From Polychytrium aggregatum (Eukaryota > Chytridiomycota > Chytridiomycetes > Polychytriales): a stretch of 64,000 nucleotides of DNA. A program made the position numbers and the translations under genes. Below the pieces are notes generated by a model. The model worked only from the letters and a program-made list of their open reading frames with translations. It ran no database searches and had not been told where the DNA came from. Below are positions 33,686 to 58,488 of this stretch, one piece after another. The stretch's first letter is position 1, and each line of letters starts with the position of its first letter. The stretch is taken from contig NW_026516206.1 in the NCBI RefSeq assembly GCF_025602895.1, positions 496,001 through 560,000 on the forward strand, written 5' to 3'.

Positions 33686-34108
33686 GGCGGTGGAGGCTGC
33701 TACTGCTGCTGCTGCTGTTGCTGCTGCAGATGCAGATGCTGGTGCTTCTGTTGCTGTCGCTGCCGGGAGCAAGTCTGCAGCCATCGGCGGACTGGGCAGC
33801 GACCCGTTTGTTTCTCTCGGGCACGCCTCGCCCGCGTCTCGCGTGCCTCTCGGCGGCAGCGAGAGCCCAAGCCACAGCGACGTGGATTTCGGGCACGGGC
33901 TTGGGCACGCGCGAGACAATGGGGCTGGACATTGCCCCGGTCATGTGCAAGTCACGCGCATACGCCACAGCCGGTCCAGCCCGGCGCGTCTGGTCGGTGC
34001 TGTCGCAGCCAGCCCTCCGAGTTACAGGCAATCCAATAAAAAACGGGACACCCGGGTTTTTGACCATTCATCGAATATTTTGTTACCCAATGCTATCGCG
34101 CGCTGGCC

Positions 34109-34829
34109 ATGACCATTCGCCACACATCCGACTTTCGCACCGCCGCATTGCGATGCTACGACCTCATCCATAGCCTGCGTAAGGTCGCCTCCATATTCAG
34201 TGTATCCAAGAGCACCATCCATCGATGGCACCGAGGATGCAAGCTGGATGACCCATCCCGGGTCCCAGCTCGCAGATCCACTTTCTTCGAGCAGGCATGT
34301 CCAGTCATTCACACCCTGATTGAACAGGACCCGTTCCAGACTGGTCCTGTGTTGCGATGCAAGCTCGAGTCCATCCTCCAGAGGAAAGTATCACTCTCAC
34401 TCTGCCACACTGCCATCCACCGAGCAGGTCTCTCACACAAGAGGGCAACACACCTCTACAAGTCCAAGCGACTGGATGAGCGAGTGGCACAGTTCAGGGA
34501 CCAGGTCCGCTCCATCGACCCACGACGATTCGTTTTTGTCGATGAGACAGGGATCAGGAAATCCATTTTCCCTCTTTACGGATACTCACCGAAGGGTGCT
34601 CCGCTTCGCCAGCGCAATCACATGAAACACAAGTCTGTCTCGGCTGCATTTGCCATCAACCACTCTGGTGTGCTGCATCGAGCGCCGAGGATGGTCAGTG
34701 ATCTTCACCCCACCTGCCTCGCCCGACATTCAGAGTCGGGATGGTGACCCTGTTTGAGTCTGCCGTGCGGAGAGTGCTTCCAGATGTCTTCCCACGGCTG
34801 ATTGAGCGAGCGATGCGCTTCTGGGGTTG
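34109..34829 (+). pseudogene. Truncated Tc1/IS630-type transposase
   Basis: The open frame from ATG 34109 to TGA 34747 gives 212 residues. It starts with an HTH region (TSDFRTAALRCYDLIHSLRK, FSVSKSTIHRWHRG), a spacer (HTLIEQDPFQTGPVLRCKLE), a second helical domain (LCHTAIHRAGLSHKRATH) and RRFVFVDETGIRKSI, where the Asp is the first catalytic acid of the DDE domain. After VSAAFAINHSGVLHRAPR the family sequence breaks. The remaining two catalytic acids are not found; only scraps in other frames follow to about 34829. It therefore cannot be an active transposase. The start region reappears, joined to Fanzor 3' sequence, in the derivative at about 42.2 kb. Confidence 0.8.
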
Positions 34830-35078
34830 AGTTCCCTCCAATCAAGCCGCCATTTTCACGTTCACATCCCTGGCTTGAACCTCTCGGCGATTTTTGAACA
34901 GGGTCGCTTCCAACCAGCCCGCGCAGACTGGTTCCTGCTCTCGGGTATAAATGCCACACCTTCGTCCTGCTGCTTTCTTCCCTCATCTCGCCTTGATCTG
35001 ATCATCGCGCTATTGTACGATAAAAAAGTCTCTGCTCTGACCAGTACCACTGGCAGGCATCCAGCATCCTCTGCCCCC

Positions 35079-37475
35079 ATGCCTCCGAAGCGTAAGGGTA
35101 CCGGTGATGGCCAGCCTCGGCCACCCAGGCCCAAGAAAGCCAAGTCACAGTCGGAGCCTGTCTCTGGTTCGTCTTCTGATCCCACGCATGCTTGGTCGTC
35201 TGTTGCTCCGTCGCTCACCACCACTGCTTCTGCAGATCCAATGGATGTCGATCCCACCGAGCCTGGTCCATCTACTTCCTCGAGTACCGGCAAGCGATGT
35301 CGCCAGTGCGATGGCACCGATCACGAGCGAAGCAACACCAACAGGTGTCCCAAATACCGGCCCCTCAAGAGTTCTGTCGTCCCACTCGTGGATGGAAGGT
35401 CATCCGCCCCTCAATACAGCTGCTTCAAGCAGACCATGGACGGCATCTTCTGGAAGAATGCAAAGAAACAGTGGCTCAATCCCGACCTCTGGGGCAAGAT
35501 CCAGGCCACCGTCGCAGCCATGACCCAGATCCAGTTCGAGGCATCCAGGCTGCTCAACCTGCACATCCTCCGGTGCATCGAGCAGGATCTTCCCGTCCCT
35601 GTCATCTCCAAGACCACCCCTGCTTTCATCCGCCAATGCTTCACGATTGTCGAGGCCGATGCCCTCTCGCCGACCGGGGACAATGAGAAATACAACGAGC
35701 ATCTGGTCGCTTCCTTTCGCGACTACCAGACCACTCGGCACGCAGACCTGCCTCCGACCCCTCGTCTGCCTGATGGTGCTCACAGTCAGCTTCTCACACT
35801 GGCTGTCAATGCCTATGCCACCAACTGCACCACCCACCTCAACCTGGCCTACTGGCGACTCCTTCGCCGCTTCTGCGCTGCCGTCTTCCCAGCCAACAAG
35901 CATAAGCACGAAGCCATCGAGGCCTGTCTCGAGCTCTTCGAGAAACCAGGGCAGACTCCACCCAAGGCCGATCTCGAGTTCCTATATCCCGACTTTGGTC
36001 ACGTCCTGGACGAGTTTCGGTACAGCAACGACCAGGACCGCTTCCGGGCCCTCCATCGCCTCTCACACCATGTGGGGATCATCGCCCGGGACAAGATGGT
36101 CGACAATGTCCACAAGTGGATCGACTGTGACATGCCCGCCCTCCGAGTCACCGAGCTGCAGCGCCAGGCCAAGCTGGACGAGCTCACTGCCCAAGGCATT
36201 CCCTCCGACGACAAGAGGTTCACCAAGGCCAAGTCTGAGCTCGGCACCACCAAGTCCAAGATCAACAAGCTGGCCGCCAGGATCAACTGGGCACTCAAGC
36301 AGCTCGCTCTCGACACTCCTCCGGCCGTGTGCACGATGGTTCCTCTATGCACTGCAAGGGCCAAGTATGTCAAGATTGACACGGTCACTCTTTGACAACT
36401 CCTTGACACCGAACATCGTCTTGGACTCACCAGGGACAAGCTCAAGGATGAAGGTGATGACGGTGTCAACAACCAGGATCGTCTCTGGCGCAGTTGCTTC
36501 AAGCTGCGTCGTTCCCTCTTCCAAGAGCGGGACGTGAACAAGAAGCTGTTCAACTACGAGATCAGCACCGATGGCATTGGATGCACCATCGGCCTCGTCA
36601 AGTTTCTGCCTCGAACCGATCGCTCCGAGACCTCCGAGCCTCCTCCGACTGCCGAGCAGCGTATCCAGGCCCACATCGGCGACCCAGACCCCGATCGCAC
36701 CACTTGGATTGGCATCGATCCTGGAGTCGGCTCCATCTTCACGGCGGTCATCCAAGCACCGGGCCACCAAGACGAGGTGGTCTCGTTCTCCAATGGCCAC
36801 TACCAGCACATGTGTGGCCATACGTCCAACACCAAGTGGCACAATACCATGAAGTATCGACTCGATATCGAGACCTGGATGTCAACCACCCCCTCGCCCA
36901 AGGTGTCGTCCTCGGAGGCTTTCAAGGTCCATCTCACCCATGTCCTGCGACCGGAGCTGCGAGTGCAGCTCGACTTCCACCTTGGCAAGAAGGCCCGTCA
37001 CCATCGCTTCACAGGCCACAAGAGGCGCCAAGTGGCCGTCGACAGGATGTGCAAGGCCGTCCTGAAGCACGCCCCGATACGGACCGATGTGGTCATCGCC
37101 TTTGGCAATGCGTCATGGCGACAGGGCAAGGGCTATGCATCCAGCCCTCGGAGGCAGCGGTTTGCTCGGTACTTTGAGCAGTTCGAGCACCACCGACGCC
37201 GTCCCAATCACCATCATGGAAGCGTCAAGGTGGCCTCGACGAACGAGTTCAACACCTCGCAGGTGTGCTCCAAGTGCCTGGAGCCAGTTCGGTTGGAAGG
37301 ACTCGATGCGCCCAGCGTTGCGAATTCCCACTTTGTCAGGAGCTGCAAGAATCCCAGCTGCCGGACAGTGTGGAATCGCCAAGTCAATGCGGCGCGCAAC
37401 ATGATCACAGTATGCAGGTCGATTGTGGAGACCGGAGAGCGACCGGCGGTCTTCACTCGGAGGCTGCCAAAGTGA
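35079..37475 (+). CDS. Fanzor RNA-guided endonuclease (eukaryotic TnpB homologue), one in-frame TGA
   Basis: Fanzors are eukaryotic relatives of TnpB that cut DNA guided by an omega RNA. From ATG 35079 the frame has 798 codons with a single TGA at codon 439 (36393-36395); both halves share one frame. Visible parts: a basic, low-complexity leader (PPKRKGTG), a zinc-knuckle-like C-x2-C-x4-H-x7-C near residue 85, a helical middle, then RuvC-I TWIGIDPGVGSIF with Asp547, the alternative RuvC-II glutamate Glu723 in STNEFNTSQVCSKC, a four-cysteine zinc ribbon beginning at that CSKC, and VWNRQVNAARN, where the usual RuvC-III Asp is Gln768. A possible 69-nt intron (36365-36433, GTATGT to CACCAG) would remove the TGA in frame. 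Without it the gene is a pseudogene or needs read-through. The open frame continues upstream of 35079 without an ATG. Confidence 0.88.
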
Positions 37476-37577
37476 TCTGTTTTATTTCTTGTGGCTTTGC
37501 TTGACGCAAGCACAGCACATACTACATGTTCATGGAAACGGCTATATTGTCCCTTTTTTTTCTGAATAAAGTGTATT

Positions 37578-37594
37578 TGTCTCGCCTGGAGACA
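37578..37594 (+). other. Hairpin just outside the element's right end
   Basis: TGTCTC, loop GCCTG, GAGACA forms a perfect 6-bp stem about 10 bases beyond the inferred right end of the Fanzor element. An AATAAA lies just before it at 37565-37570. Confidence 0.5.
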
Positions 37595-38111: not shown

Positions 38112-40103
38112 ATGGATTACTCGGATGAGCTGGACAAGATCTACGAGAAGATGTCTGGCATCCATCTCATCCTGCTGGTCGTCTATATCGTCGTCGCCTT
38201 GTATGTATCCCGGACTCTGCCGGCTATGCTCGATGTGGCCAGAATCCACAGAGGCACCGCTATCCGCGTTGGTTGCATGCCCTTGGCCGTGCTGGTACCG
38301 AACGAGTCGGGCTGTCCATACCGGCTGCAGAAAGGTTGTGTCGTTTGTCGGCCAGCTCTCTAATCCGGCAAATGCTGGCGCGTCGTCAGTCTCGTATGCT
38401 CTGTACATATCCTCCAGATCATGCGCAACAGGCTACTGTTTCGCAACATTCCGTTAGCAGTCATCCAGCACATTGGAAACATTGCCCTGGTGGGCTCGCT
38501 GCTGGCCTCGTTTCTGCAGGGCGGTCTCTGTTTGCCCTCGCTGGTCTTCACCTTTGTCGGCAATGGATTCGTGCTGTTCTCGACCAACTATCAGACCATT
38601 CTGTTCAAAGCACTCAAAAAGTCTCAAAAGAACAAACTACACCTGTCACCTTCCGCTCAAACATGGGCGGTGGAAGCGGAGAGAGATATCAAAAGCTGCG
38701 CAACATGCATGCACAGCAATCTCGAGCCCGAATCCGCCACAATGCAACTCATCCTGCGCCGAGACGTCATTTTCATCTATGGCCTCCCAGCGCTTATCTG
38801 CGTCATCGGCGTTGGGTACGGTCTTGTCGTGAACTATCTTTCTCCGAGTCTTGCCGCGCCAAACACCATGACCAACTCGTGCAACCTGTCGACTCCCGAG
38901 TTCTGGCCGGTGCTGGTGATTGCTGCCGTCAACTCTGGGATCGTCAATCCGCTGTGGATCTATTTGCTGTGGTCCGAAGACGACAACTTTGGCATCAAGC
39001 GAGAGCTGATGCTCTCGAGCGCGCTCAAGGTGGTGTCATTCATAGCGTAGGTATCGAGACATGGATCTGCCAGGATCGCCTTGTTGCTAGTGCATGCTGC
39101 TAACTCGTTTCTGCATGGTGCCTGTCGCACTCTGATCCCTCCACTCTCATTCCCTCCTCCACTCTGATTCCCTCCACTCTGATTCCCTCCACCGCTCAGG
39201 ATTGTCGTGTGGTGGTCAGCGATCCCATTCTCGTACGGCGATATTCCTCCAACCGTACGGAACTACTTTCAGATCAACGACTGGGTGGCCGTGACCCTCA
39301 TCATCGAGAGCGTCAGCGTCGTGCTTATTCCCACGTTTCTCTCGCTAATGCCCGCAAGCTGGAGGCCGCGACGGGCCGCCAACCAGGCCAGCTACAACAA
39401 CTGGGAAACCTTCATGTTTGTGCTGGGCACGCCGGAACTGTTCCAGGAGCTCAAGAGCTTCGCTGTCCAGGACTTTTGTGTCGAGAATGTGCTCTTTTAC
39501 GAGGAGTACCAGAGAATCATCCAGAAGGCAAAGCTGTTCATGATTTCGCTGCAGTCAGGATCATCGGACACAAGCGCCAACCACAGCCGGATCGATACCC
39601 AAACCGACGACCATCCCCGGCGCTCGGATGTCTCGCGCAAGCGGCCGGCCTCACGAATCTTTTCGTTTTCGAAGGATCTCTTCGACAAAAGGTCCGAAGA
39701 CGAAAACGGCTTGGTTATCAGCATGGAGAGTCTGATCACATGCAAGAGCGACCAGTGCGAGGGGCAGCTCTGCTTTGACGAGCGACACAGCAAGAACCCG
39801 CTCAAATGGGTCCCGCATCAGTTTCGGAGCGACTTTACGCACTTTTATCGCTGCTTCATCTCCAAGAGTGGGCATTTGCAGGTGAACTTGCCCAACGCAA
39901 TCCAGCAAGCCGCCGAGAGCTACTTCTGCGAGCCTGCTCCAGAAGATGTCCCCATCAAGGTCTTTGACGATGCCAACAGCGAAGTTTTGCTCATGATCTT
40001 TTCGAATACCTTTCTGCGCTTCATCAACGCCCCGACCAACGTCAAGCTCATTCGCGAGCATCAGAGCGCTGCCCGGCGAGCCCGGCGACACCGAGAGTCG
40101 TAG
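38112..40103 (+). CDS. Multi-span membrane protein with C-terminal RGS domain
   Basis: This looks like a receptor-type regulator of G-protein signalling that speeds GTP hydrolysis by G-alpha at the plasma membrane. Three exons (38112-38204, 38418-39046, 39200-40103) give 542 codons with consistent phases. Hydrophobic spans occur at LILLVVYIVVAL, IALVGSLLASFLQGGL-LVFTFVGNGFVLF, VIFIYGLPALICVIGVGYGLVV, LVIAAVNSGIVNPLWIYLL, VVSFIAIVVWWSAIPF and VAVTLIIESVSVVLIPTFLSL, about seven in all. The RGS part starts NNWETFMFVLGTPELFQELKSF, has CVENVLFYEEYQRI, a long charged insertion, and ends VFDDANSEVLLMIFSNTFLRFI. The large insertion inside the RGS box is unusual. The topology resembles fungal and plant RGS1-type proteins, but the ligand is unknown. 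Confidence 0.83.
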
Positions 40104-41879: not shown

Positions 41880-42022
41880 CCGATCCAAGCCCTGCGTCTC
41901 GGGAGCCAAGACGGCTGCAGAGCGCTGGCGGCCTATTGTCGGCCTCGCCATCGAATCGGCCTCGCCATCGAATCGGCCGACGCAAAGGCAGTCCGCGGGA
42001 TCGCCGGCGAATTCGTGCACTA

Positions 42023-42322
42023 TATTCAGGGGAAATGGGACACCTGCCAACAACCCATTTGTCGGTGTCGTATGCGATGGCATGCGTCTAACTATGCCAT
42101 AAGAAATAGAACAGATCACTTTGGCAGCCTCCGAGTGAAGACCACCGGTCGCTCTCCGTCTCCACAATCGACCTGCATACTGGTCTCGGAGTGCAGCGAT
42201 GCGGAAATCGAGGGTGCTGTGTTTGGTCATGAATGCAATGAGTGGATGGGTGTATTCAGGTTCCAGAAAAAAGCCCTGTCATGGCTCAACGGGGTGTCCT
42301 GTTTCATTGTGGAATCGCCGTA
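42023..42322 (-). mobile_element. 300-bp internal-deletion derivative of the Fanzor element (MITE-like)
   Basis: Read on the minus strand it starts TTACGGCGATTCCACAATG and AAACAGGACACCCC, aligning with the left end of the full element at 34.02-34.05 kb. About 65 bases later comes ATG (42230) and a transposase-like start (LDFRIAALR, against SDFRTAALR in the full element). Near 42180 it switches to the Fanzor 3' end: about 75 bases from AGTATGCAGGTCGATTGTGG through the stop region are nearly identical to 37410-37490, with one base missing, so the fused frame is shifted. It ends GGTGTCCCATTTCCCCTGAA-TATAG. It has no complete gene and would depend on a transposase in trans. It abuts the start of the BTB gene. 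Confidence 0.8.
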
Positions 42323-42552
42323 ATGCCGCTCGCGCCACATTCGACACGTTCGAAATGGCCAAGGCACGGACACGCCCGGCAGTATCGAGAGCGCAACGGC
42401 ATCCGAATATGCCCCCTCTGAGGGGCCTGGGCTCGCTGCTGGCGGCATCGACCTGATCTTGTTCGTGCAGACGCTGTTGCCCAGCTCGCCGGCCATCCAC
42501 TGCCCACTCGTCTCGCCAGGCCCTCTGCGTCGTCTGCACGCCGGCCACCAGC

Positions 42553-45351: not shown

Positions 45352-48300
45352 TCATAGTTGTTGTCGCTCACTCTCGGGCCCATCTCCGTCTCTAACGCTG
45401 GCAGCTCCTGACGAGCCTGGAGACGAATCCGATTCGTTGTATCCCTGCGCGTCGATATCGGCGTCCTTGGCACCATCGTCGAGTAGTCTGCTGTTGGAGT
45501 CCATGGGGACGTTGTCGAGATTGCCAGCGGCCGAGATCGTGACGACGGGTATATGTGCCTCCAGCGGAACAAACTTTTTGTCGCAGAGCTCAGCCAGATC
45601 ACTGTTGGACACACCCTTGGGCATGGTGTTCCAGAACTCCGCGATGGCTGGATTGACCCAGGGCTTCTGCAGCGGCTTGGAGAACGCCGGATTGACGTAC
45701 TTGGTCATGTACCGTTCAAGGTTATGGTGCTCTGGGGACGTGACAAATTCGGTCTCGATGGGGCTGTCGGCTCCCAAGGAGTCCAGAGCGGCCGGTGTCA
45801 TTGGTGTTGGTACCAGCGGCGTGGGGGCTGCTGGTGAGATTGTCAGCGACGGGGGTGCGGCCGGCTGGGTTGTGTGGACCTGCAGCACCCCCGAACGCTC
45901 GTCTGATCTTTGTTGACCAGCCGTTTCGGTACGATCGGCTGCGATTTCTGATTGGGTTGCATTTGGGTGTCTGTCGCTCGTTCCCGAAGGCTTGGGAGCC
46001 AGTGCGTCCGCTGAGCCTGCGAGCGACTGCGCTGTGAGATCGGGGCCCTCAAACAGCTGATCGAGCGGAATGAACCGTTTGACAGTTCGTTGCTTGAATG
46101 CGATTTCGCAATATCGGTGAAACGCGACGGTGATCGGGACAAGAGCAAACACAACGATAGCTGGGATAAGCACTGCATCGGGTTTGGTGCAAGCAAGCCA
46201 CATTGAGGATAGCCGCGATCGGGATGATCGTCCATTGTGATGGGTGGAGCAAGATCAGTATCGCAGTCGATTTGGCGCCACAACCACGGTGCATTCCGAA
46301 GATATCGACAACGCGCAACGCAGCTGACCGGTACAGTGGATTCCGCATGCCATCGTGATAATAAAAAGGATTCAGGTCTCAGGCAGCCTCACGCTCTCCA
46401 AGACAAGCAGAAAGGTACTGGCGCTGGACAGAGCCCACGGGCTCTCGTTCAACTCGATAGGGGGCATGCTTACCGTTCTTTGCCATCAGCACCCCGCAAA
46501 GGGTCAACTGACCGATGACGATTCCAACGATGCAGTACGTAAAAACCTTGCACCAGTGCCTGCCATATCCTTCCCACTCCTTGACATACACAAAGAGCAG
46601 TTGGTTGCGGTATACAACCCACCCGATCAGGAAGAACAGCGTGCCCGGCAGGAGCACAAGTGGTGCAATGACTGCATAACAGGAAATGATGACAAAGACA
46701 AGCAGTGGGAACGGATAGAGCGCTCCGTAGTTGAGGTACGACGTCGTCAAGCTGCCCTCGTGAAAATCGCGCGGTGTGAAGCTGAAGAAGCGGTAGGTGA
46801 TTAGGTCGTAGATGGTGGCCCCTGGGCGGATGAGTTCGAGTGAGAAGAAGTTGATCGAGTACTGAATGTAGTTGATGAAGAAGGTGCTGGCGCCCGGAAG
46901 CTTCGTGGCCAGCAATGAGGTGATGATCGTCATCGGATTCTGCCAGAACTCGACCACTATTCCAAAAAATGCGCCGCTGAGGGCAAACACGAAAAAGACG
47001 TTCAAGAACAGGAAGAAAAAGTCTGGCATCGGTCGTGGAGTGACCAGACGAGTCAGTGACTTGGACGCACTGGGCTCTTGCGAAATACCGAGTCCCGCTG
47101 GAAGCAACAGCATTCTAATGCACATGAAAGCCATGCGGGATGTGCCATCTGGATCGCGGACTCTGCCTTCAGGAGCACCAACGAGCCTCACTTACATTTG
47201 GTCAGCGTTGCCACTTCAACATCTGTGTGTGCATATCGGGCTTCAAGGTACGATATATCTGTGGTCAACAAAGCCGAGTGAGTCTCGATATCGGACCGTG
47301 TCTGGTACAATGTCGTGCGATGTTGCCAAATGCAAGGCTCAGCTACGCACCGTCAGCACAGTGCTACAACTGGGACAGCGGATGCGATGACACGGGCATT
47401 GCGCACGATCACTGGGGGCAACTCACAAATCATGATGTATGGCACCAGCAAGTTGAGCAGGCCAAGAACCATCGGGGGTCCAAGCGAGTTGATAAGGAAG
47501 GTAAGAGTCGGGTTGTCGGCGACAAGGTTGGTGATGATGTTCTTGAAGTATGGGATCTTGGCGAGATTGTCGAGGTTTACGAGTGACGACACAGCCGCAG
47601 CCGGGATGGTCCAGAAGAGGCAAAAGAAAAAGACACCGGCGCCAACAACAATGCGTTGCATGTAGCGCCTCCACAGCGGCATCGACACTGATCCCCAGAT
47701 GATGTCATGTGGAGACGGTGCAAGCAGCACCCTCATCTCGGATGGGTCCGGAGTGGTATAGGTCAGCAGTTGGGCCGCCATCTGGGCGGCGCGCTGGGAC
47801 TTGAACGTCACGAATCCGGTGCTGTTGTAGAACACGTCGTTCTCGGAGATGTACCAGTCCGGGTTGCGAGCGATTAGCCGCTGCTGCTTGATGCGGTGTG
47901 TGAGCAAGACCAACTTCTTGGAATAGAACGCAATCATGTCCTCCTGATCGGTGCGCCGGGTCTGGGTGCGTGTGAGGGTCGGACGGAGACCCTGGATCTT
48001 CTCGTCGGTCAGGCCCTCGGAGATCTCCAACGGAAGCGTATTCTCCCGATCAAGGTCGTTGGATTTCTTCAAAAAGTACACAAGCCAGCCGGGCTTGTAC
48101 CAGGGCCGCTTGGGACCAACAAGCGCATCCCGCTCTTTGACGATGCGCCGATACCACATTTCGTAGGCCTTCTCGAGCTTGGCCAGGGTGCGGTTCCGCT
48201 TCGACATGAGCTTCTCGACGCTCTTGCTGGAGCGCCGATCGATGGTGACTCGCTGCACATCGCCGATGCCCAGCGAGTTGAACCAATCCTTGAGCTGCTC

Positions 48301-49535
48301 GTCGTCTCGGATCCGGTGCGGGATGCCCTGGACCATGACGGTCCGCAGCTGGATGAGCTCGCCACGCCGCCAGCTTGGGGCACGTCTGGCGAGGACGCCG
48401 TCGTATTCCTTGAAGTACGCCGTGGCCATGTTGGCATAGAACTTGTAGTCCTTATACAGAAAGGCGAGCATCGAGGCCGTGACCGTGTAGGCGCATAGCA
48501 CATGGACCCAAAAGGCCTGCGATCCCTGCTGAATCCCTGCGACGCTGAAGCTGTCCATTTGCTGGTCCTGGAACAGAACCGTGTGGTCCGTGGTGTTGAC
48601 CATGGTGATGGTGTCGCCGATGACCGAGAGGTAATTGTTGAGCGGCGTAAGCGATGGCGTGAAGAGGACGGCGAGCAGTCCAAACATCAGGAACGATGTT
48701 CGCATGAATCGAAGAAACCTGCGGCGAGACGACAATAACAAGAAGTCAGAAGCCGGCTCCCCGCTTACGCCGCCACGCAGTGACCCGCAGGATCACTTCC
48801 ACTATCGATTCTAGCATCAACAACCCAGGCCAGCTCAGCAACATGGTTGCTGTAACCTTCCCAGGGTCGCAGGTACGATAGTGGTGTCGAAGGATGTTGC
48901 AAGCGATGAAGGGGTGGCAGACCGCAGACCGCAGAACGCACATCACAGCATCGAGGCCAATGTTTTCAAGAAAAAATGACTCGTCTGTGGTAACAGCCAC
49001 TTTGACCCAGCTCAGCCAGCCCTTTGGGATCGGCGGAGTCTGGTCCCTATAAGAAACGGCGACGGCGTGAGCACAACCTCATCTCGGGAAGCAGCGAACC
49101 CTCTGTCAGCGCGTGCCTGTCGTCTGGAAACTGGTGGTTGTGCCGGCGATGGTGAAGAGAGCCCACGCATGATCCTAGCAGACAACGAAAATAGCCTTCC
49201 GGGCGCCTTGTGCAAGCCTACTGGCTCGTAGACTACACGGCCCGCATCGACGGACGGATGAGTGGATCTTACTTTGTGGTGAGGCGCCGGGTATAGAGTA
49301 CCCGTTTCATGAACTGCCTGACCCTGATGACTTCATACGCGATCATACACAGGATAGCCACGATGGTGGTGATGCCGAGCCAGAGCAGGACTCCCTTGAT
49401 GCTTGGATCGGAGACGTTGTATATGGGGAGCGGCGACGACGACGGAGACGGGGAAGGCGAAGCGGACGGGGATGGCAGCAGACTCTCCGACGCTGTGGGA
49501 GACGGCGCCGGCTGAAGGGATGTCGAGACAGACAT
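45352..49535 (-). CDS. CSC1/OSCA/TMEM63-type hyperosmolality-gated cation channel
   Basis: A 1030-residue multi-span channel protein from six exons: 49535-49273, 49046-48930, 48718-47427, 47258-47196, 47022-46474 and 46160-45352; all phases agree (1031 codons). Order: a Ser/Pro-rich N-terminus, the first span (LLWLGITTIVAILCMIAYEV), the GWLSWVKVAVTTDESFFLENIGLDAVM region, two spans (FLMFGLLAVLFTPSL; FWVHVLCAYTVTASMLAFLYKDY), the cytosolic RNA-recognition-like loop with TVMVQGIPHRIRDD and GFVTFKSQRAAQMAAQLL, then the conserved pore region from RIVVGAGVFFFCLFWTIPAAAVSSL through KYFFFLFLNVFFVFAL and LITYRFFSFTPRDF to GYGRHWCKVFTYCIVGIVIGQL. A 250-residue hydrophilic tail follows. It probably passes Ca2+ at a cell membrane; gating here is not testable from sequence. 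The exon 2 donor (GTCTGC) is weak. Confidence 0.92.
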
Positions 49536-56766: not shown

Positions 56767-58488
56767 CTACAGGATATGCGTCACCATCGATATGCGCATC
56801 GCCTTGATGGCCTCGAAGAGCGTATCGACCGAGTCTGGCGAGACATCGCATTCGTCCAGATGGCGGACGAGCCACTGGTGCAAAACCAGGGCCTGTGCTG
56901 AGTTTGGCTCGTTGGCGATCCGCTTGAGCTGAAGGGCATCCTTCCATAAGGCAGCAGCGACATGGGGGCGAATGCTTCCGTTGCGGGCGAGCTGGGCCTC
57001 AAAGGCCCTCCAATGGGCCGCAAAGAACGAGCCGCCGGCACGAGGAAAGCTCTTTGGCGCTGGGCCGTGGACCAGAGCCACAGCCGCCCCGATCGTGATT
57101 TCAAACGACTCAATACAGAGCTCGACGCCAAGCCGGGGAACCTTGGGCGGACCCGAACGGGAGGTTTGATAGATCCTGGGTCGCGACGGGCCTATGCCCA
57201 CATCATCCGCCTTGGTGGGCTGGGCATCTGGGTCCGGTACTGGACGCAGGGTGTATCGCAGGCACCACTGACCACCCTTGCTGTCGAGGATCTTGCAGCG
57301 GATGCCCTCGGCCGGCAAGCCACGCTCGACGACCTCTGCGACGGGCTCGGTCCGAACAAATCCAGCGTACCAGCCACCGCTCTCGACCTGCCACTGGGGG
57401 AGCTCGGTCGAGCGGCCGTTGAGGGCGAACGACATGAGCCGTGGGAAGGTGCGGAGTGAAGGCTCCAGACCAAAAGCGCGCATGGCAGCCACCGAAGGCG
57501 ACTGGACAGTGGGCCCTTCATAGTCCTTGATGGACGAGCCGATAACGGCGGGGGTCCGCGGGCTCTGTTGCGACACCAGATGGGCAGATGGGCAGATGGG
57601 CAGATGGGCAGATGGGCAGATGGGCAGATGGGCAGTTGGCAGGTCGCAGTCAGAAGATGCCGGTTATGCGGAATGGAGGGGAGGCGCATCGGGGGTCACG
57701 TCCACAGAAGGCAGCGATTCCTGGGCCGAGCCACCCGCCTCTGGCAATGCGATGCATGATGGTGCCGTGCAATGAGATGCAGCGCGGGGCGATAGAACAT
57801 GGCTGCGGGAATGCGCACGGACCAAGACCCACACTGCCGCTGTTGCCGCTCCAGCAGGGAGAGGGAGGATCCGTACCTGCGATGCATCCGAAACCGCACG
57901 GGGCAGAAACACGAATGTGCCGAGCTGCGAATTGACCGAGCTCAGGAACATTTGCAGCGAGCATTCGCCGATGCCGCCTGGGATGGTGAAGCTCACCAGG
58001 GCCTTGGCCCTGCGGTACCGTTGGAAGAGCGTGGTGTCGGCAGCGATGCGGAAAGTGTGTGAGACGCACCGCAGCAGCTCGAGGCTGCGGCGGTCCATGA
58101 ACCAGAAGATGGAGACGATGATCTCGAAGGGCAGCGTGGGTGTGCGCCGCTCCTTGCGGAAGGGCTTGACCTTCTTCTGGATGAACGAATAGAGCGACCG
58201 AGCAAAGTCAAGCGTGCTCTCGGGAAGCTCCAGCAGGTTGGGTTCGTTGTACTTGATGATCAAGGGCGAGTGGGGATAGGCCTTAGTCTTGATAAGCGAC
58301 AAGTTCTTGGTATAAGGCTGCTGCTGCTGCTGCTGCTGCTGCGTCGGCAAGACGCCGTTGGGCCCGGTCGACAGCGAGCGCTTCAGAGTGTGGAAAGGCC
58401 GGGGGGTTGGGGCATACGAAATGATGGACTCGACAGAGCCCCTCCGTCGCAAGCCACCATGACTTTCTGTTGGGGCCAAGGATGACAT
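56767..58488 (-). CDS. F-box-like protein of unknown target
   Basis: Two exons (58488-57877 and 57564-56767) give 470 codons, 469 residues. A polyglutamine run of about eight is at residue 50. Residues about 113-155 (TPTLPFEIIVSIFWFMDRRSLELLRCVS) follow the F-box pattern of LPxEIxxxIF and a leucine-rich helix pair, which would bind Skp1. The second half has no repeats I recognise; it includes a segment with WQVESGGWYAGFVR and GGQWCLRYTLRPVPD, possibly a beta-rich substrate-binding domain. If the F-box is real this is an SCF adaptor. The intron carries an 8-bp tandem repeat. Confidence 0.68.
57577..57632. repeat. Intronic 8-bp tandem repeat
   Basis: Seven exact copies of CAGATGGG lie within the F-box gene's intron, just upstream (in gene orientation) of the acceptor at 57565. 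Confidence 0.92.

Follow-up and report, generated by a model that had tools for sequence, protein, structure and literature searches.

The window, that is, the whole stretch of 64,000 nucleotides of the Polychytrium aggregatum genome that was analysed, contains at 34023-37575 an element of 3553 bp (3.55 kb) with a TA at both ends, which by its sequence is a decayed copy of an autonomous DNA transposon of the Tc1/mariner type carrying a transposase and a Fanzor1 gene. Its boundaries were obtained by comparing it with 20 further copies in this genome, 19 of which gave the left end and all 20 the right end, and the transposon-like unit in which the preliminary description had placed the nuclease gene is real. 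The features of the element and its immediate flanks are given below by position in the window.

34022..34024, + strand: T and left TA, the predicted target motif (TAM) TTA (T in 183/189 exact left ends)
34023..34024, no strand: left TA, presumed target-site duplication (boundary against 19 copies)
34025..34050, + strand: left terminal inverted repeat (TIR), imperfect (20/28 positions common to the right end including the TA, counted by eye)
34109..34747, + strand: remnant of a Tc1/mariner (IS630-like) transposase (DDE_3 6.3e-4, below the curated cut-off)
35079..36392, + strand: Fanzor1 N-terminal (REC/WED) part (whole gene 93.6% identical to the 790-aa Fanzor of copy L010)
36393..36395, + strand: in-frame stop (TGA) interrupting the Fanzor frame (translation of 35079-37475)
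36396..37475, + strand: Fanzor1 C-terminal RuvC/zinc-ribbon part (PF07282; homologues P0001-P0013)
36567..36575, + strand: TDG motif, a Fanzor1 mark of the WED domain (PMC10711439)
36711..36725, + strand: RuvC-I GIDPG (alignment A2, window sequence)
37236-37259, + strand: STNEFNTS block (window translation)
37245..37247, + strand: alternative RuvC-II glutamate (invariant in 13/13 rows of alignment A2)
37266..37361, + strand: zinc ribbon (CSKC 37266-37277, CKNPSC 37344-37361)
37380..37382, + strand: RuvC-III catalytic position, Gln here (Asp in 20/20 fetched copies)
37476..37575, + strand: right end with putative omega-RNA scaffold, right TIR and TA (kept in 10/10 fetched deletion derivatives)
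37574..37575, no strand: right TA, presumed target-site duplication (boundary comparison)
37576..37591, + strand: right flank adjoining the element, inferred guide source (analogy with Saito 2023)

An ATG at 35079 opens the claimed frame and the gene ends at 37475. RuvC-I, the glutamate of the STNEFNTS block, the four-Cys zinc ribbon and the C-terminal NRxVNAARN block, all reported in the preliminary description, were found in the window sequence. The "long frame" mentioned there is broken by the internal in-frame TGA at 36393-36395, and the 'x' of the NRxVNAARN block, present as reported, turned out to be the third catalytic position, where the window has Gln instead of Asp. The C-terminal piece is matched by PF07282 (Cas12f1-like TNB) at 4.8e-8, above the curated cut-off; a Pfam search gave no match of its own for the N-terminal part (35079..36392), whose REC/WED domain names are taken by analogy from SpuFz1.

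The window gene is a broken, dead copy, marked by the stop, the changed catalytic residue and the truncated transposase. At the site of the TGA the frame is open in all 20 fetched copies, which rules out an intron in place of the stop; the frame is whole in 16 of them, and stops or frame breaks at other places were found in the remaining four (L015, L019, L023 and L024). With Gln at its third position the D-E-D triad is incomplete, and in SpuFz1 the residue placed there by our alignment, D606, helps to bind the catalytic metal (PMC10432273). A nuclease-dead Fanzor family, which this Gln had suggested, was ruled out, the Asp being kept in every fetched copy. From the transposase gene, compared with that of other copies, two stretches are absent, about 134 bp following 34672 and about 79 bp following 34727, the first of which copy L023 lacks as well. 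Both genes are whole in copy L010, which encodes a 790-aa Fanzor and a 310-aa transposase with matches to DDE_3 (4.4e-21) and to the IS630-family model (transpos_IS630, 7.1e-33). The right end of the window copy carries one substitution that is unique among the 36 right ends compared. Because its frame is interrupted, a catalytic residue is changed and its partner transposase is truncated, an active nuclease from the window copy appears very unlikely. The earlier proposal that this copy belongs to the RNA-guided Fanzor system holds by descent only, the three defects arguing against an active nuclease, and taken alone the copy is a pseudogene of little interest. The predicted functional candidates are the intact copies elsewhere in the genome.

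Host-like genes were also observed in the window, namely a piece of a DEAD-box helicase (2160-2966), an RGS-domain protein (39207-40100), an RSN1/PHM7-type channel (47356-48741) and a gene with a weak, sub-threshold F-box match (57667-58488).

Assignment to Fanzor1 and comparison with known elements

In an hmmsearch of the PDB with the profile of alignment A2, the three best matches were Fanzor1 proteins: SpuFz1 (8gkh, 6.9e-23) and the Fanzor1s of Parasitella (9cf0, 7.2e-17) and Guillardia (9cer, 9.3e-17). Below them came the TnpB-like L79 (4.4e-12) and then TnpB/Cas12 proteins, ISDra2 TnpB reaching an E-value of 0.13. Searches of the PDB with single sequences gave chance-level matches only, among which, down to an E-value of 1, no chain of a Fanzor appeared. 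A homologue search with the C-terminal piece returned 13 proteins (P0001-P0013), the nearest of which is from P. aggregatum itself (94% over a third of the query) and others from sources that include Quaeritorhiza haematococci and Sorochytrium milnesiophthora; the full-length protein returned no match, and a search of viral contigs found no relative. Alignment A2 shows conservation of the DPG motif, the alternative glutamate and the zinc ribbon, the D, P and G of RuvC-I each reaching at least 90%. TDG is also found in relatives P0006, P0007, P0008, P0011 and P0012, and P0013 has TNG. DPG together with the alternative glutamate has been described as the hallmark by which Fanzors are recognised, and TDG as typical of Fanzor1 (PMC10711439). 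Because these three marks are present and three solved Fanzor1s are the best matches, the gene family is, as judged from sequence, Fanzor1. At the sequence level the outcome that the preliminary description had named as refuting, no significant match to Fanzor or TnpB, did not occur. The structure prediction that was run (single-sequence AlphaFold2 on the window protein read through the stop) had a mean pLDDT of 40.6, too poor to use.

That the gene might instead be a prokaryotic-type TnpB, as the best partial match in NCBIfam could indicate (guided_TnpB, 9.8e-6, far below its cut-off), is exceedingly improbable in view of the three marks, the lead of the Fanzor1 structures in the profile ranking, the mariner-type transposon and the fungal host.

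Several aspects of the family have precedents, Fanzor1 in Tc/mariner elements with TA duplications and numerous Fanzor elements having both been published. SPu-1 of Spizellomyces punctatus, which encodes SpuFz1 (Saito 2023, PMC10432273; Bao and Jurka 2013, PMC3627910), has in common with the present family a chytrid Fanzor1 with RuvC and zinc ribbon, putative TA target sites, inverted repeats, many copies and conserved bases before the left end, and its ghosts, i.e. deletion derivatives, likewise keep the right end (PMC10432273). In contrast, Saito 2023 found no transposase inside SPu-1 elements, whereas the element described here has one; CA precedes the TA in SPu-1 and T does so here; SpuFz1 has 633 aa against 790 aa; and 42 full or partial Fanzor loci plus 134 ghosts (PMC10432273) compare with at least 127 scored copies here. 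A mariner-type transposase and a Fanzor1 are combined in one element with TA duplications, as here, in PGv-1 and PUl-1 (PMC3627910), but PGv-1 is described there as single-copy, whereas the present family is numerous, includes intact copies and resides in a chytrid genome. The Fanzor1s of Parasitella parasitica and Guillardia theta (PMC11423790; 9cf0, 9cer) belong to the same family by their profile matches, and the TAM of GtFz1, TTAA (PMC11423790), resembles the TTA predicted here; they come from other hosts and their activity was measured, whereas the family presented here is known from sequence. In the green alga Auxenochlorella a Fanzor-encoding element was reported as the most abundant repeat of the genome (PMC12633428), the transposon type being given as uncharacterised, and it is likened to ours by its description. 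About 150 copies of the Fanzor element CMe-1A have been described in a red alga. For ISDra2 TnpB (PMC8612924) a homing role has likewise been proposed, but this system is prokaryotic and has a single-strand transposase. A literature search, in which subscription journals were mostly absent, found no report of the present Fanzor family, and no mention of Fanzor was found in the literature searched on Polychytrium and Polychytriales.

Copies, selection and deletion derivatives

In the genome assembly (64.7 Mb, 418 contigs) at least 127 scored copies were found among 1310 candidates, the window copy included, and the others are 95-98% identical. A Fanzor open frame of at least 780 aa is present in 87 of the 127 listed copies, 3 of these 87 being flagged with an internal stop. 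In the 20 fetched copies, which were among the top matches to the C-terminal piece of the window gene and hence biased to good copies, 16 encode a Fanzor that, counted from the conserved start, is 788-790 aa long; a complete 310-aa transposase is encoded by 7, and 6 have both. Exact end patterns occur genome-wide as 189 left ends (183 + 6) and 211 right ends, counts that include ghosts and sites represented a second time on another contig. As a separate observation, beside an element with a whole Fanzor frame lies a remnant (L014:5324-5446) that resembles a diverged second Fanzor family, with 70.7% identity over 41 residues.

The pN/pS ratio of the 16 Fanzors is 0.30, falling to 0.11 in codons 601-700, and that of the seven whole 310-aa transposase genes is 0.25, excluding the non-whole frames of L025 (shifted end) and L028 (187 family residues only). 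The Fanzor is thus under purifying selection of about the same strength as that on the transposase, and the idea that the transposase is under weaker selection than the Fanzor was dropped on these values.

Ten short ghosts were fetched, chosen for exact left and right end patterns lying close together. They fall in size classes of about 284, 313, 385 and 1115 bp, with identical internal junctions found again at separate sites. None of the ten has lost the right end, of which each keeps at least about 169 bp, the last 28 bases having been part of the selection. The 36 right ends compared are very alike, and the stretch before the right TA could form a stem that takes in the TIR and the TA, as described for Fanzor1 RNAs. 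Folding of this putative omega-RNA was no better than that of shuffled sequences (z -0.59 for a fetched copy, -0.93 for the window). Saito 2023 (PMC10432273) describes an extension of 14-15 nt past the conserved region, and by analogy the flank to the right of the element would be the source of the guide. The right end of intact copies is predicted to give rise to an omega-RNA.

Copies at the same site and a possible homing cycle

Twelve sites were searched with joined flanks, and seven of them are present on two contigs, with the element in both. Within the element these seven same-site pairs differ at 511 of 25835 positions (0.44-3.28% per pair), against 9 of 9778 outside it (0.09%); the lowest difference noted is that of L015/L040, with 16 in 3635. 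At 349 of these 511 positions the rarer variant recurs in two or more further copies, at 53 in a single one and at 109 in none. The longest identical run exceeds that of shuffles in six of the seven pairs (p 0.025 or less), the seventh being L019/L041 (p 0.124). Of the 511 differences, 3 and 11 fall in the outer 250 columns; among 293 non-allelic pairs the corresponding figures are 1553 and 1849 out of 42999. Non-allelic copies are about 95-97% alike. In two of five ghost-site pairs, whose flanks show 0-1 mismatch, there is a class switch: a 283-bp class faces a 312-bp class, and a 1114-bp derivative faces a 3480-bp element. The other three differ at 8/383, 1/385 (L035/L076) and 0/312 (L032/L077) positions. 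Pairs chosen for equal transposase scores gave, in their left parts, 3/1198 (L044/L045) and 2/1200 (L046/L047) mismatches, and 0 over 1588 in L048/L049, where the left end was not recognised; L050/L051 and L052/L053 were dropped for unrelated flanks.

As a control, ten pairs of another repeat family (window 41994-42339) showed 2/2577 differences inside against 14/5970 outside, a weak comparison, given that this family has shorter, more divergent copies and that equal scores were the main ground for choosing the pairs. This short dispersed repeat has 43 listed matches elsewhere at 75-93% identity (39 of 1163 candidates scored). LTR retrotransposons were left out as a control, their scored domains being nearly all alike; the 150 scored integrase (rve) matches, out of 1111 candidates, belong to LTR retrotransposon-like families whose scores are almost the same, which suggests that they expanded in recent bursts.

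The pattern between same-site copies suggests gene conversion among copies, and its main competitor is an error of assembly or consensus in a high-copy repeat, an explanation which we regard as quite possible, if somewhat short of probable. Correction of noisy long reads can mix near-identical copies, and the copies are about 96% alike. At 2 of the 12 sites, L021 (C23, C81, C346, C334) and L016 (C257, C395), discordant combinations of flanks occur on different contigs, reflecting either ectopic crossover or a contig mis-join, and mis-joins at these repeats are therefore to be feared. Likewise, inverted pairs of equal-score transposase matches about 7 kb apart (C8:67818-75679 and C135:373827-381769), which may be palindromes, could be assembly artefacts. 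On the other hand, the class switches lie between flanks with 0-1 mismatch, and an insert of about 300 bp in unique flanks is easily spanned. The recurrence of 349 of the 511 variants in at least two other copies and the arrangement of the differences in blocks in six of seven pairs also argue against error, although a mixed consensus could match other copies and give blocks too.

In a TnpB scheme proposed by Karvelis 2021, the donor site left by excision is cut by TnpB and regains the element on repair (PMC8612924), and a preprint describes a gene-drive role of TnpB in plasmids (PMC11870625). The anatomy described here fits the donor-site-restoring scheme, transferred by analogy to a Tc1/mariner element. 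We hypothesize that in intact relatives of the window copy, whose genes would be expressed, the transposase would excise the element from its TA site, and that transcription of the right end would yield an omega-RNA terminating in the sequence that adjoins the element, i.e. half of the empty site. The Fanzor would then cut the empty site, which has TTA directly before the guide match, and the break would be repaired from a sister or homologous chromosome still carrying the element, such that the old site is kept while a new one is gained. An occupied site would be spared, having G and not T before the TA at the right end of the element, and repair straying onto other copies may produce the sequence swaps and the deletion derivatives. 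The window element is probably a degenerate copy of such an autonomous Tc1/mariner and Fanzor1 transposon, whose intact relatives would home by Fanzor cutting; the window copy itself cannot perform the proposed cycle. Counting against this reading are the small differences within some same-site pairs (L015/L040, L035/L076, L032/L077, L044/L045 and L046/L047), a putative omega-RNA that folds no better than shuffled sequences, and the discordant flanks at two of the 12 sites. The more far-reaching proposition, that the Fanzor retains its cut-and-paste transposon by cutting empty TTA-guide sites and that stray repair has left its record in the form of mosaics, switches of class and deletion derivatives at occupied sites, is at this stage distinctly unlikely.

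An empty site was sought in the genome assembly for 20 joined sites and none was found. The lack of empty alleles was considered as proof of homing and rejected, since old shared insertions would leave none either; if the insertions predate the split of the haplotypes, no empty sites are expected anyway.

The Fanzor could also be a passenger or serve another role, in which case ordinary ectopic recombination, or breaks made by the transposase alone, would account for the swaps. Similar repeats can undergo gene conversion even if they encode no nuclease, the transposase by itself breaks the donor site, and the conditions are given in the many copies and their similarity in non-allelic comparisons. 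Against this explanation, the pN/pS of the Fanzor is close to that of the transposase, unlike that of a pure passenger, and the other repeat family, albeit a weak control, shows no same-site excess over its ten pairs. On balance we consider a passenger or otherwise employed Fanzor a tentative but substantial possibility. Directly to the right of one Fanzor element (L010:5244-5460) a MITE-like stretch of about 200 bp was observed, with related ends and its outermost left bases seemingly missing; the 9 bases that immediately follow the Fanzor element are found again just beyond this stretch, as if a cut had been made and repaired there.

The target motif of the Fanzor is predicted to be TTA, preferably not preceded by C. 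Of the 189 exact left ends, 183 have T immediately before the left TA (the others have A in 3, G in 2 and C in 1), as do 14 of 16 distinct fetched flanks, and C stands two bases before the TA in only 12 of 183. The right flank has no preference across 19 distinct sites (G 8, C 5, T 3, A 3). The prediction is made by analogy, because in SPu-1 the conserved CA and the putative TA together spell the measured TAM, CATA. In all 36 fetched right ends G precedes the terminal dinucleotide (34 GTA, 2 GTG), and this G would then protect an occupied site. Alternatively, the T before the left TA may reflect a preference of the transposase or be part of the element end, and no empty site was found for the 20 joined sites that could show its origin. 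The target preference of Tc1/mariner elements is symmetric about the TA, yet no matching A is seen on the right (3/19), and in SpuFz1 the corresponding bases do form part of the measured motif; an origin of the T from the transposase or the element end is consequently rather unlikely.

The biological role of Fanzor activity is stated as unknown in Saito 2023 (PMC10432273). The family of P. aggregatum combines both genes, intact copies, ghosts, a sharp prediction of the target motif and signs of exchange at occupied sites, and is a concrete place to ask whether a Fanzor retains or spreads its transposon. If the proposed retention by cutting of empty sites is true, the genome would carry, in its mosaics, switches of class and deletion derivatives, a footprint of the natural role of the Fanzor.
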